From the NCBI GenBank assembly GCA_001603955.1, contig LVAA01000019.1, forward strand, positions 36,569-100,568: a stretch of DNA of 64,000 nucleotides, written 5' to 3'. The translations under genes were made by a program, and so were the position numbers. Below, piece by piece: positions 22,828-60,187 of this stretch (positions are counted from its first letter, which is position 1; each line of letters opens with the position of its first letter). Source of the DNA: Syntrophobacterales bacterium Delta_02 (GTDB taxonomy: Bacteria > Desulfobacterota > Syntrophorhabdia > Syntrophorhabdales > Syntrophorhabdaceae). The notes under the pieces are model-generated. The model searched no databases and was not told the origin of the DNA. It saw only the letters and a list, made by a program, of their open reading frames with translations.

Positions 22828-22871
22828 CGGCTCAAACAGTTCAAACGGCTCAAGCGGTTCAAGCCGTCTTT
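22828..22871. repeat. 9-mer tandem repeat CGGCTCAAA CAGTTCAAA CGGCTCAAG CGGTTCAAG
   Basis: Four 9-nt units, followed by CCGTCTTTT. Confidence 0.8.
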
Positions 22872-23788
22872 TACAGGCTTATGTCCCCGAACTGCATGCA
22901 CCCCTTCAGGGCATGGTAGCGTTCCTTGATCTCAGGCATGGTGAGCCGTTTGATCCGGTTGATGCTGAAATCCTCCACGTTGAACGAGGCCATGACGGTA
23001 CCCATGATGATCGCCTGTTTCACTGTCTCCGAGGTTGCCTCGCCGACGTTGGAGAGGTAGCCCATGAAGCCGCCGGCAAAGGTGTCGCCGGCGCCGGTAG
23101 GGTCGAAGACGTCTTCCAGCGGATAGGCGGGGGCGAGAAAGACCTCGTCGCGGTTCATCATGAAGACGCCATACTCCCCGCGTTTGACGACGATGCACAC
23201 GGGGCCGAGGTCGATGAGCTTCCGGGCGCCCTTGACGAGGTTGTGTTCCTTTGTTATCTCTCTGAGCTCCGCCTCATTGATGACGAGCATGTCCACCCGG
23301 GCTATCACCTTCATGAGGGCCTCGTACTTGTTCTCGATCCAGAAGTTCATGGTATCGAGGACGAGGGCGACGGGCTTGTTGACCTGTTCGATCACGTGGA
23401 GCTGGAGGTCGGGATCGATGTTCGCGAGGAAGAGGAATTCCGCATTCCTGTAATCCTCCGGGACCTTCGGTTTGAAGGCCTCTATGACATTGAGCTCGGT
23501 CTTGAGCGTTATGGCCTGATTGAGGTCGTATCCGTACCTGCCTTCCCAGCGGAAGGTCTTCCCGTGGTCCACCTCTATCCCGGACATGTCGACGCTGCGT
23601 TCCTTGAGGAAGGATATATCCTCCATATCGAAATCGCTGCCCACCGTGGCCACAACGCCGACGTCGGTGAAGAAGCTTGCGGCATTGGTGAAGTGCAGGG
23701 CCGACCCCCCGAGGACGTTGTCCGCCTTCCCGAAGGGGGTCTCTATGGAGTCGTAGGCCACCGTTCCCGCGACAAGAAGCTTGATCAT
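22871..23788 (-). CDS. PfkB-family carbohydrate/nucleoside kinase (candidate adenosine kinase)
   Basis: [48 protein letters not shown]; next to ahcY and metK. Confidence 0.88.
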
Positions 23789-41194: not shown

Positions 41195-41335
41195 GGATAG
41201 GACCGATAGGACTTTATAAGACCTATAAGACATATAGGACCTATAGGACGCATTAGAGACGATGCTGGTGATCCTGTCCGGGTTCTTCCCTTGGTCGTGG
41301 TCTTATAGGTCCTATATTTCCTATGCGTCCTATCG
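41195..41335. repeat. Palindrome with 9-mer arms (TATAGGACC type)
   Basis: Left GGATAGGACCGATAGGACTTTATAAGACCTATAAGACATATAGGACCTATAGGACG; right TCTTATAGGTCCTATATTTCCTATGCGTCCTATCG. Confidence 0.88.
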
Positions 41336-41398: not shown

Positions 41399-41881
41399 CT
41401 ACAGTTTGTAACCGAACTTCCTCAACATCTCCTTCCGGGCCTTCTTGTCCTCGTCCTTCTCTATGCCCGCCGGTCTCGCGCCGTCTATGACGCCCATGAT
41501 GCCGCGGCCGCCCCCGGTCTCGGCCACTACCACCTCGAGGGGGTTCGCGGTGGCGCAGAAGATCCGGCAGACCTCCTGGCATCCCTTGACGGCGTTGAGG
41601 ACGTTGATGGGGAAGCCGTCCTTCATGAAGATGACGAAGGTGTGCCCGCAGGACAGGGTGAAAGACGTCTCGGCGGCAAGCTTCGCCAGGGCCTCGTCAT
41701 TGCCCTCGTACCTCACGAGACAGGGACCGCTCGCCTCGGAGAAGGCGACGCCGAACTTGAGGGACGGTGCGCTCCCGACGAGTATCTCGTAGAGGTCCTC
41801 CACGGTCTTGATGAAGTGTGACTGGCCGATGACGATGTTCAGGCCTTCCGGTATGTCGATCTTTACGGTCTTGAGTTCCAT
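41399..41881 (-). CDS. Adenosine-specific kinase family protein (PF04008-like)
   Basis: ELKTVKIDIPEGLNIVIGQSHFIKTVEDLYE, LKFGVAFSEASGPCLVRYEGND, VVVAETGGGRGIMGVIDG. Confidence 0.8.
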   Translation of the reverse strand: MELKTVKIDIPEGLNIVIGQSHFIKTVEDLYEILVGSAPSLKFGVAFSEASGPCLVRYEGNDEALAKLAAETSFTLSCGHTFVIFMKDGFPINVLNAVKGCQEVCRIFCATANPLEVVVAETGGGRGIMGVIDGARPAGIEKDEDKKARKEMLRKFGYKL

Positions 41882-41920
41882 TATGCCTCCTTTAGTTGGC
41901 AAGAAAGATTAAAAACCCTA

Positions 41921-42217
41921 TCTCACGCCCGTTCGTCGCATGCGCTCCTCTCTCGAGTTCACAGAGATCGCAGAGAGAGGAGAAAAGAGAGAAAAGATTG
42001 CCGCCGGATTTCGGGGCCTACCAAGATCCGGCGGCCTTCTCGTCCCGCCGTCCCGGCGGGAGGCAAAGACAATGCTTTTTCTATTCCGCTCGTCATGAGC
42101 GAAAGGCGGAATCGAAAATGTTCCCTGATCCTGGTAGTCTCCGGGATCAGGGAACCGTCTTTTCTCTCTTTTCTCTCCGTGTGCTCGAGTGAGCCCGAAG
42201 GGTGAACGGGCGTGAGA
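41921..42217. other. Large nested inverted-repeat element with four internal hairpins
   Basis: Outer 14-bp TCTCACGCCCGTTC/GAACGGGCGTGAGA (41921-41934/42204-42217); inner 18-bp arms GAGAAAAGAGAGAAAAGA (41980-41997)/42158-42175; hairpins at 42000-42035, 42044-42060, 42083-42112 and 42121-42154. Confidence 0.88.
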
Positions 42218-42237: not shown

Positions 42238-43179
42238 TCATTTACTTGCTTCTCCTCCCCCTTCACCGAAGGGCTGTTCCTTGCCGAAGTCCGGCACGTA
42301 GAGGGGGGCGCTTTCGAGGTCCTGGGTGAAGACGTTTTCCATACCATTATTTATAAGGAAGGAAACGACATTGTCGTATTCCTCCTGGCGTATCCGTCGT
42401 GAGAGGATCGGGTGCTCGCCGGAGCGGTGGAGGGGGAGGTACTGGGACATGAGGCCTATGGAGGTCTGTTTGCCCAGGGTTTCGGCGATCCAGCCGAGTG
42501 CCGCACGGGACCCGGCAAGGCCGCCGGGGAGGACGAGATGGCGGACGAGAAGGCCCCTTTTGGCGATGCCGTCCTCGAGGAGAAGGTCGCCCACCTGGCA
42601 CTTCATCTCGATAAGTGCCTCGCGGGCACATTCCGGGTAGGGGGCGTGCGCCGCCGGGCCGGAGAGCCTCTCGGCGATGGCGGGGTTCCAGTACTTGAAG
42701 TCGGGCAGGTAAATATCGATGAGGCCGTCGAGGGACCGAAGGGCGTCGACAGCGTCATAGCCGTTCGTGTTGTACACAAAGGGTATCCCGATCCCTCTTC
42801 TCTTCGCTTCTCCGATTGCCGCGGCGATGAAGGGAACATACGGCGTGGGGCTCACGAGGTTGACATTGTGGCACCCCATGGCCTGGAGGGAGAAGAACAT
42901 CTCCACGAGTCCATCAAGGCTCACCGGGCCTCCCTGACCCTCGTGGCTTATCTGGTAGTTCTGGCAGAAGACACACCGGAGATTGCAAAAGGAAAAGAAT
43001 ATGTTCCCCGACCCGCGCGCTCCCGAGATGGGCGGCTCCTCACCGAAATGGGGCCCGAAATGGGCCACAAGGATGTCCTTCCCCGCACCGCAGAACCCCT
43101 TTTCCCCGGCAAGGCGGTCAACCCCGCACCGACGGGGACACGCGGAACAGGGCGCCAGCATGGAAAGATCGGCTTGCAT
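42238..43179 (-). CDS. Radical SAM protein, COG1313/PflA-like
   Basis: CSACPRRCGVDRLAGEKGFCG; FCNLRCVFCQNYQISHEG CxxxCxxC motif. Confidence 0.88.
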   Translation of the reverse strand: MQADLSMLAPCSACPRRCGVDRLAGEKGFCGAGKDILVAHFGPHFGEEPPISGARGSGNIFFSFCNLRCVFCQNYQISHEGQGGPVSLDGLVEMFFSLQAMGCHNVNLVSPTPYVPFIAAAIGEAKRRGIGIPFVYNTNGYDAVDALRSLDGLIDIYLPDFKYWNPAIAERLSGPAAHAPYPECAREALIEMKCQVGDLLLEDGIAKRGLLVRHLVLPGGLAGSRAALGWIAETLGKQTSIGLMSQYLPLHRSGEHPILSRRIRQEEYDNVVSFLINNGMENVFTQDLESAPLYVPDFGKEQPFGEGGGEASK

Positions 43180-44795: not shown

Positions 44796-44804
44796 AAAAA
44801 TACC

Positions 44805-44946
44805 GTTTTAAGTTTTAAGTGTTAAGTTTTAAGTTAAAAGCAAAAGCGGGAAAGAATCCAGGGCGATGATCTCGTGTAAAGGAAGGCGCAGACCCCCTCT
44901 TCTTTTCTTGTCCTCTACTTAAAACTTGAAACCTAACACTTAACAC
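44805..44946. repeat. Heptamer phrase palindrome, GTTTTAA type
   Basis: Left GTTTTAA GTTTTAA GTGTTAA GTTTTAA GTTAAAA (44805-44839); right TTAAAAC TTGAAAC CTAACAC TTAACAC (44919-44946). Confidence 0.92.
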
Positions 44947-44951
44947 CGTCT

Positions 44952-46166
44952 TTATCCTATCATCTGCACCGTCCCGTCCGGTATTACTGCGGCCCGGACG
45001 GGCCTGCCCGCGTACTGCCTGTCGAGTTCGGCGATGAGGGCGCCGAGGTCGTCGACCCACGTGATGTCCTCCTTCTTCCCGAACCAGTAAGAGCCGGCAT
45101 GGTCCCTGTGGCGGGAGTAGAGGAAGAACCTCCTCACCCGCTCATGGATCGGCCGTTCACCTCTTCCGAGCCTGCCCCAGACGTCCTTCCCGAACCTGCC
45201 CATGAGGTAGTGGATGACCTGTCCCTCCTCGATGTCGTTGAGGATGACGAGGCAGCCTCCGTTCGGGGAAAGGATGCCCTCCGACGTGGAGGCAGCGATG
45301 ACGGCCTCGTTGGCCTTGCCGAAGGTGTTGGCGAAGACGACGTCATATTCCCCGGCCGCCTTCGTCGCGTAGTGCGCGAGCGCCCCCTCTATCATCGCGG
45401 GATAGAGGGAGTCGGGGTGGCCGGCGAAGACGCGCGTGGCACGGGAGGAGCTGTTCACGAAGACATCGATCTTGATATCCAGACGGGCCATCCGTCCCGC
45501 CTCGCGCATATCCGACAGGACGACGTTGCATGAATGGTTGCCGAGGCCCCAGCAGTTGTCCAGGTTTTGCTGGAGGAGAAGGCCGTGGTGGTACTCGATG
45601 GCGTCGATGTGGGCTATGCCGGGAAAGACTATCTTGTATCCGCCGCCGAAACCGCAGAACTGGTGGGGGATGAAGGACCCGATGCCTATCCTGAGATCGC
45701 AGCGGAGGTACTCCTTGTTGATGGTAACGGGTGTCCCCAGGGCCGTCGTTCCCAGCGTTTCGCAATTCTCGTAGCAGTTGTGGTTGTAGACGGGAAAGCG
45801 CCTGAGCACCTCGTCGCCGAGCTTCTTCCGGAAATCCGCGTTGTTGTGGGGGGAATGCGTACCCAGGGCGCAGAGGAACCGCACCCGGGAGTCGTCGATG
45901 CCCGCGCTTGCAAAGGCCTTGAGGAGCGTCGGGACGATCTCGTATGTGCGCGTCGGCCGGGAGAGATCGTCGAAAAGGACGCAAACCTCTTGTCTGCCCT
46001 TCATGAGCGGAACGAGGGGCATGATGGCGGCGCGATACTCCTTTTCGCCGATGGGCTCTGCCGCGTCACCCGCCATGGTAAGGACGTCCACGTCCCAGCG
46101 GGGCGGGAAGTCCGCCTCGAGGGTGCGCTCACCGTTCCAGAGGCCGTGGGGCAAGGATATTTTCAT
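44952..46166 (-). CDS. LarA-family (nickel-dependent lactate racemase-like) protein
   Basis: CVLFDDLSRPTRTYEIVPTLLKAFASAGI, CALGTHSPHNNADFRKKLGDE, GIGSFIPHQFCGFGGGYKIVFPGIA. Confidence 0.85.
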   Translation of the reverse strand: MKISLPHGLWNGERTLEADFPPRWDVDVLTMAGDAAEPIGEKEYRAAIMPLVPLMKGRQEVCVLFDDLSRPTRTYEIVPTLLKAFASAGIDDSRVRFLCALGTHSPHNNADFRKKLGDEVLRRFPVYNHNCYENCETLGTTALGTPVTINKEYLRCDLRIGIGSFIPHQFCGFGGGYKIVFPGIAHIDAIEYHHGLLLQQNLDNCWGLGNHSCNVVLSDMREAGRMARLDIKIDVFVNSSSRATRVFAGHPDSLYPAMIEGALAHYATKAAGEYDVVFANTFGKANEAVIAASTSEGILSPNGGCLVILNDIEEGQVIHYLMGRFGKDVWGRLGRGERPIHERVRRFFLYSRHRDHAGSYWFGKKEDITWVDDLGALIAELDRQYAGRPVRAAVIPDGTVQMIG

Positions 46167-60090: not shown

Positions 60091-60187
60091 GGTCATAGGT
60101 CATAGGTTATGGGTCATAGGAAAGACCTTTTTTCTTGACGGGCTTCTTTCTGTTGTTCCCATCACCCATAACCTATCACCTATTACC
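60091..60187. repeat. Heptamer phrase palindrome, GGTCATA type
   Basis: Left GGTCATA GGTCATA GGTTATG GGTCATA (60091-60118); right CATCACC CATAACC TATCACC TATTACC (60160-60187). Confidence 0.95.

Follow-up and report, generated by a model that had tools for sequence, protein, structure and literature searches.

The spacer between two minus-strand genes in the window, by which we mean the whole 64,000-nt stretch analysed, holds a 297-bp palindromic segment (41921–42217), which raises the question of whether such a structure is part of a transcript, an RNA in its own right or a mobile repeat. The original prediction described exact 14-bp outer arms, a CTCGAG pair, 18-bp purine/pyrimidine arms and four hairpins, and all of these features were present. 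The left terminal arm TCTCACGCCCGTTC (41921–41934, plus strand), recognized by sequence reading and repeat search, carries the terminus YCTCWCGCCCG of the repeat family described below; it forms an exact 14-bp pair with the right terminal arm GAACGGGCGTGAGA (42204–42217, minus strand), found by repeat search and by the terminus pattern. CTCGAG was read at 41952–41957, where other family copies have CTCAAG, and again at 42184–42189. A 9-nt phrase repeat, TTCACAGAGATCGCAGAGAGAG (41958–41979, plus strand), belongs to the class of phrases seen at GxxExxY genes and includes the phrase CACAGAGAT-CGCAGAGAG (9 nt, 41960–41978); the right-arm phrase, also read from the sequence, is GCACACGGAGAG (42173–42184, minus strand). 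Sequence reading and repeat search also yielded the purine arm GAGAAAAGAGAGAAAAGA (41980–41997, plus strand), an exact 18-bp pair with the pyrimidine arm TCTTTTCTCTCTTTTCTC (42158–42175, minus strand). Within these arms lie hairpin 1 (42000–42035), a 36-nt hairpin that an alignment identified as the covarying hairpin of the family; hairpin 2 (CCCGCCG/CGGCGGG, 42044–42060) and hairpin 3 (ATTCCGC/GCGGAAT with an inner stem, 42083–42112), both located by sequence and fold; and hairpin 4 (42120–42155), which repeat search and alignment assigned to the 36-nt type of hairpin 1 with another stem sequence, and which is followed by a T-rich stretch. Profile searches returned the same neighbours as first named, both on the minus strand: a radical SAM gene upstream (42238–43179), the stop codon of which lies 25 nt before the element, and an adenosine-specific kinase gene (PF04008) downstream (41399–41902).

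The repeat search recovered the arms independently, and an exact 14-bp arm in the outer 40 + 40 nt arose in 0 of 2,000 composition shuffles. Folding of both strands, as had been proposed, revealed structure far beyond chance (z = −10.6 for the plus strand as DNA and −11.5 for the minus strand as RNA), with no shuffle folding as well in either case. The ORFs over the element (98 aa on the plus strand and 107 aa on the minus strand) had no match in Pfam, even with the threshold relaxed to E ≤ 1, bearing out the suspicion that they are spurious. Because the element constitutes the spacer between a stop and a start codon, its minus-strand transcription as a 3′ UTR or leader is to be expected; a sigma-70-like promoter was looked for at the element and none was found, and an Rfam search returned no family at the gathering threshold. 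An origin from phage DNA was rejected, as blastn found no match in 50,697 phage records.

A search of the element's own genome (G000), an uncultured draft of 4.03 Mb in 285 contigs that is 98% complete, matched 50 pieces at around 28 places, many of them at the ends of contigs, the points at which repeats interrupt an assembly. Identity between unlinked copies was 81–90%. The element had first been read as a possible 3′ UTR, leader or independent structured RNA, with further genomic copies to be sought as a sign of a mobile element. Other copies exist, and the mobile repeat is therefore the supported reading; a dedicated RNA lost ground for want of an Rfam family, and the segment is not a unique RNA but one among ~28 dispersed copies. 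The terminus pattern YCTCWCGCCCG had 45 matches in this genome versus 0 for a reversed-pattern control, and the family was present in 12 of 12 genomes of the genus (one congener being Deltaproteobacteria bacterium UBA1386) and nearly absent outside it. Reading all copies gave a shared layout: an AAAGAC-like outward stretch and then YCTCWCGCCCG with one of three end versions; next CTC(G/A)AG, a 9-nt phrase (CGCAGAGGACGCAGAGA and variants) and a purine tract; and, innermost, the 36-nt hairpin, a GC-rich hairpin and an optional AT-rich or CCTATAGGT-phrase core, followed by the mirror image. These modules occur in several combinations, in composites 80–550 bp long.

The junction of the radical SAM and kinase genes is conserved throughout the family of relatives, and comparison at this orthologous site revealed presence/absence polymorphism. 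The element occupied it only in G000, G004 and G005, and was absent from G010 and the other congeners examined. G010 carries a short unrelated palindrome there, though its kinase is equally similar; the spacer is 8–27 bp in some congeners without the element, and in G003, G007 and G009 it measures 8–9 bp. We searched the flanks of 14 other sites in seven congeners and retrieved stretches of those genomes for comparison. The same spacers were empty in some species, filled by the window family in others and by unrelated palindromes built of 7-nt phrases (GGTGATGGGTTATGGG, CCGTTAGAACCGTTAG, GGTTCAAGAGTTCAAG, TTGGTCATTGGTCA) in still others; some copies (L016b and L009) were found only in G000 among the genomes compared. 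Inspection of the flanks of filled and empty sites gave no consistent target-site duplication. By its sequence and distribution, the 297-bp segment is one gene-less member of a dispersed, insertion-polymorphic, apparently mobile palindrome family. G010 has a TTGGTCATTGG-type palindrome nested within a GGTGATAGG-type one (L157, G010:C21:19640-20389) at one site that the window family occupies in G000.

The 20 copies scanned for their position relative to genes typically had stop codons on both sides, that is, they lay between convergent genes, and the neighbouring stop codons were mostly 14–25 nt from the element ends. On one side the window copy departs from this pattern: it sits between tandem genes, with the radical SAM stop codon 25 nt before it and the kinase start just beyond it.

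Sequences of the 36-nt hairpin were picked out through their loop, chance loop matches were dropped so as to keep this hairpin type only, and two hairpins whose loops are altered were included manually. In the alignment of 28 distinct sequences 97% of cells were paired, a figure inflated by selection on loop and hairpin type, and 8 of the 12 pairs showed two-sided changes. Covariation was 0.387 compared with 0.131 in shuffled alignments and at most 0.114 when the alignment was slid, and real stem replacements were seen (GCCGCCGGAT, GTTCCCTGAT, GTCCCGTGAT, GCGGCCAGAT). The outer arms behaved differently from this inner hairpin. Arms within one copy were no closer to each other than to the arms of different copies (29.9 versus 28.9), indicating that arm pairing within a given copy is under no visible selection, and on this ground a co-evolving outer stem was rejected. 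In both relatives with the element at the window site, a different version of the family end has replaced the outer arm; given such orthologous swaps, the outer arms behave as family termini and not as a co-evolving stem. Arms not preserved in relatives had been named at the outset as a refuting outcome, and this is half the case: the outer arm has been replaced, and the inner hairpin covaries. Copy number, termini, presence or absence at orthologous sites and hairpin covariation are accordingly matters of direct observation.

A sister copy in the same genome (L032, G000:C200:143080-143697) shares the family's termini and 36-nt hairpin, which enclose an intact 141-aa ORF. This ORF (L032:2152-2577) encodes a full member of the GxxExxY family (TIGR04256, 134.5 bits versus a curated cut-off of 35; PF13366, PDDEXK_3); the window copy, for its part, is gene-less. 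The insertion is shared with G005 at the orthologous site and absent in G010, G002 and G008, and the ORF has a dN/dS of 0.059 over 137 codons between G000 and G005. Across 27 aligned GxxExxY proteins the invariant residues were G, G, E32, Y35, D73, E83-x-K85 and Q97-x3-Y101, of which the E, D, ExK and QxxxY positions form what we take to be the PD-(D/E)XK site, with the motif of the RecB/Cas4/lambda-exonuclease group. An AlphaFold2 model (pLDDT 92) had lambda exonuclease, LHK-Exo and Cas4 as its best Foldseek matches (probability 0.9–1.0), modest ones by E value (1.7e-3 to 1.5e-2) and TM score (~0.45). On this modelling, GxxExxY is a small Cas4/lambda-exonuclease-like PD-(D/E)XK protein and a predicted nuclease. 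Two further features were seen at such loci. In the L032 element (L178), the gene is flanked by 36-nt hairpins left and right in G005 and by the left-hand one alone in G000; and in two loci (L222, 1456–1854; L232, 600–1034) the phrase arms extend into the GxxExxY reading frame and appear in its translation (MNHETHENHEK... and ...NREPHERHEQK).

Degenerate phrase repeats like CCACAGAGGACACAGAGG are widespread in environmental genomes, and examples from two further phyla were observed in this analysis. In 297 sampled genomes of the phylum, GxxExxY-family (PF13366) genes occurred in 111 and four-helix-bundle proteins in 161. For GxxExxY we took the 30 top-scoring loci of this 297-genome draw, a non-random set in which some loci are related, and scored an inverted repeat between the two flanks when it exceeded the 99th percentile of a common null. 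GxxExxY genes lay between inverted repeats at 28 of these 30 loci, compared with 2 of 27 adenosine kinase orthologue controls. A 157-aa PF13366 subgroup, which served as a negative control, had such repeats in 0 of 7 cases and was rejected as a possible carrier. Genes for four-helix-bundle proteins (PF05635) had inverted arms above the same percentile at 23 of 29 phylum loci. The two kinds of arm differed: those at GxxExxY genes were mostly 9–10-nt CACAGAG/CACGAAG-like phrases (ACCACAGAGGCACAGAGGGCACAGAG, ACCACGAAGGGCACGAAGAACACGAAG, CCACGGAACACACGGAA, AACCGCAGACACACGCAGAC), and those at four-helix genes mostly 7-nt phrases with no shared sequence. A CRCRRA phrase stood on both sides of 17 of the 30 GxxExxY loci versus 0 of 29 four-helix loci (Fisher p = 6e-7) and 0 of 34 controls (Fisher p = 9e-8). 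In records from other phyla, GxxExxY with inverted phrase arms was also present in Bacteroides finegoldii, Gemmatirosa and Bernardetia; the arms were weak in Fusobacteria and Treponema, and a Sphingomonas locus (L274) had no matching downstream arm. The same-ended GxxExxY copy and the phylum-wide association of GxxExxY with inverted repeats are, likewise, observed facts. Judged by its CACAGAGAT-CGCAGAGAG phrase, the window element belongs to the 9–10-nt GxxExxY class, so that the tie to phrase-repeat families, noted at the outset, was right and weightier than first thought.

We consider it probable that the window element is a gene-less, non-autonomous palindromic element of a class whose coding form carries GxxExxY. 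The coding form would make a small hairpin- or end-acting nuclease; GxxExxY would move or maintain the elements by working on their hairpin or cruciform form, or on the single strands arising from it, its substrate presumably being single-stranded or cruciform DNA. Gene-less copies, the window element included, would be moved in trans. The genome holds a single GxxExxY copy of this exact family, so that action in trans on ~28 copies is an assumption. The family settles right behind stop codons, where a large hairpin would be tolerated, copies most likely accumulating there because insertions are harmless.

GxxExxY could instead be cargo hitch-hiking in arms made by something else. Under such an explanation, for which we see a real if minor chance, the arms arise and spread by slippage and template switching during host replication, or through another transposase, and small genes are only occasionally found inside. 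Gene-less copies are indeed far more numerous than coding ones, nested palindromes such as that in G010 exist, and template-switch correction could produce the covariation of the internal hairpin. Passive carriage sits poorly, however, with the coupling of gene and phrase types (9–10-nt CRCRRA phrases with GxxExxY, 7-nt phrases with four-helix proteins) and with the purifying selection on the coding copy.

Rather unlikely, in our estimate, is that the palindromes are selected 3′ structures, kept as bidirectional terminators or stabilizers of mRNA 3′ ends, with their spread being secondary. Copies typically lie between convergent genes with a stop codon no more than ~25 nt away, which would suit this role, as would the very stable fold, the T-rich stretch after hairpin 4 and the unrelated palindromes that fill the same spacers in relatives. 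Yet some relatives have no palindrome at the same junctions (the 8–27-bp spacer at the window site), the window copy separates two tandem genes, a T tract is missing from most hairpins, and the 81–90% identity of unlinked copies points to copying, not convergence; the link to GxxExxY would also be left unexplained.

Size, hairpins and location after stop codons also recall REP/BIME repeats moved by a RAYT, a Y1 tyrosine transposase. REP/BIME repeats (PMC2817692) are likewise dispersed, palindromic, mosaic and intergenic near stop codons, with modules variously combined, and Y1_Tnp genes occur in 10 of the 11 other congeners. However, Y1_Tnp (PF01797) had 0 matches in the element's own genome, which is 98% complete and holds many copies, and eight Y1_Tnp loci in congeners had neither the family terminus nor a blastn match to the family. 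A RAYT/IS200 mobilizer was therefore rejected, and we regard this origin as very improbable; the window family further differs from REP/BIME in its composites of 80–550 bp and in a coding relative, GxxExxY, that is a predicted nuclease of another fold. Unrelated repeats, separate from the window family, lie near the Y1_Tnp (RAYT-like) genes of congeners (L102 and L104), for example GTTATTTACTTGTTAACGAACGTCCCC at L102.

The strong fold, together with a minus-strand location ahead of the kinase, might point to a separate structured non-coding RNA or to a riboswitch-like leader for the adenosine kinase gene. Either is hardly credible given the missing Rfam match and sigma-70-like promoter, the same sequence at ~28 unrelated loci, mostly behind convergent genes, and, in most relatives, the absence of the element ahead of the kinase orthologue.

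Among known systems, the window family, here read as a mobile repeat with a GxxExxY-bearing coding form, resembles MITEs in its conserved terminal inverted repeats, gene-less copies, same-ended gene-bearing relative and presence or absence at orthologous sites; unlike in MITEs, the gene of the same-ended copy is no known transposase. 23S rRNA intervening sequences encoding the four-helix-bundle protein S23, PF05635 (PMC4990558), are similar in that their long inverted arms close a loop in which a small ORF may lie, and PF05635 genes in this phylum share the arms-plus-gene layout; the window family differs by its link to GxxExxY and by a phrase period of 9–10 nt, not 7. Flanked by two protein-coding genes and with no Pfam-matching gene inside, the window copy was rejected as a 23S rRNA intervening sequence. 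The functionality and origin of those sequences have been termed unclear (PMC4990558), and the phrase/gene pairing opens a route to their origin. PF05635 genes outside rRNA (L115–L134 and L241–L270) have inverted 7-nt arms in an architecture like that of the 23S rRNA intervening sequences.

The recurrence of GxxExxY between like inverted repeats in many bacteria hints at a joint role for a very common, unexplained protein and an equally common repeat. Because phrase type and gene type are consistently paired, orphan proteins and orphan repeats gain a testable shared function. In the open-access literature searched we found no description of GxxExxY or four-helix proteins as the gene of dispersed palindromes, which does not in itself prove novelty. 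More tentatively, the common intergenic CACAGAG/CACGAAG/CACGGAT-type palindromes of environmental bacteria might constitute one GxxExxY-driven mobile class, parallel to a 7-nt class of four-helix-bundle (S23/IVS) proteins, both moving non-classically by recognition of hairpin arms. Further phrase palindromes lie elsewhere in the window, at 60091–60187, 44798–44953, 41216–41333 and 22832–22962 (GGTCATAGGTCATAGG, AAGTTTTAAGTGTTAAG, ATAGGACCTATAGGAC, TCAAACAGTTCAAACGG).
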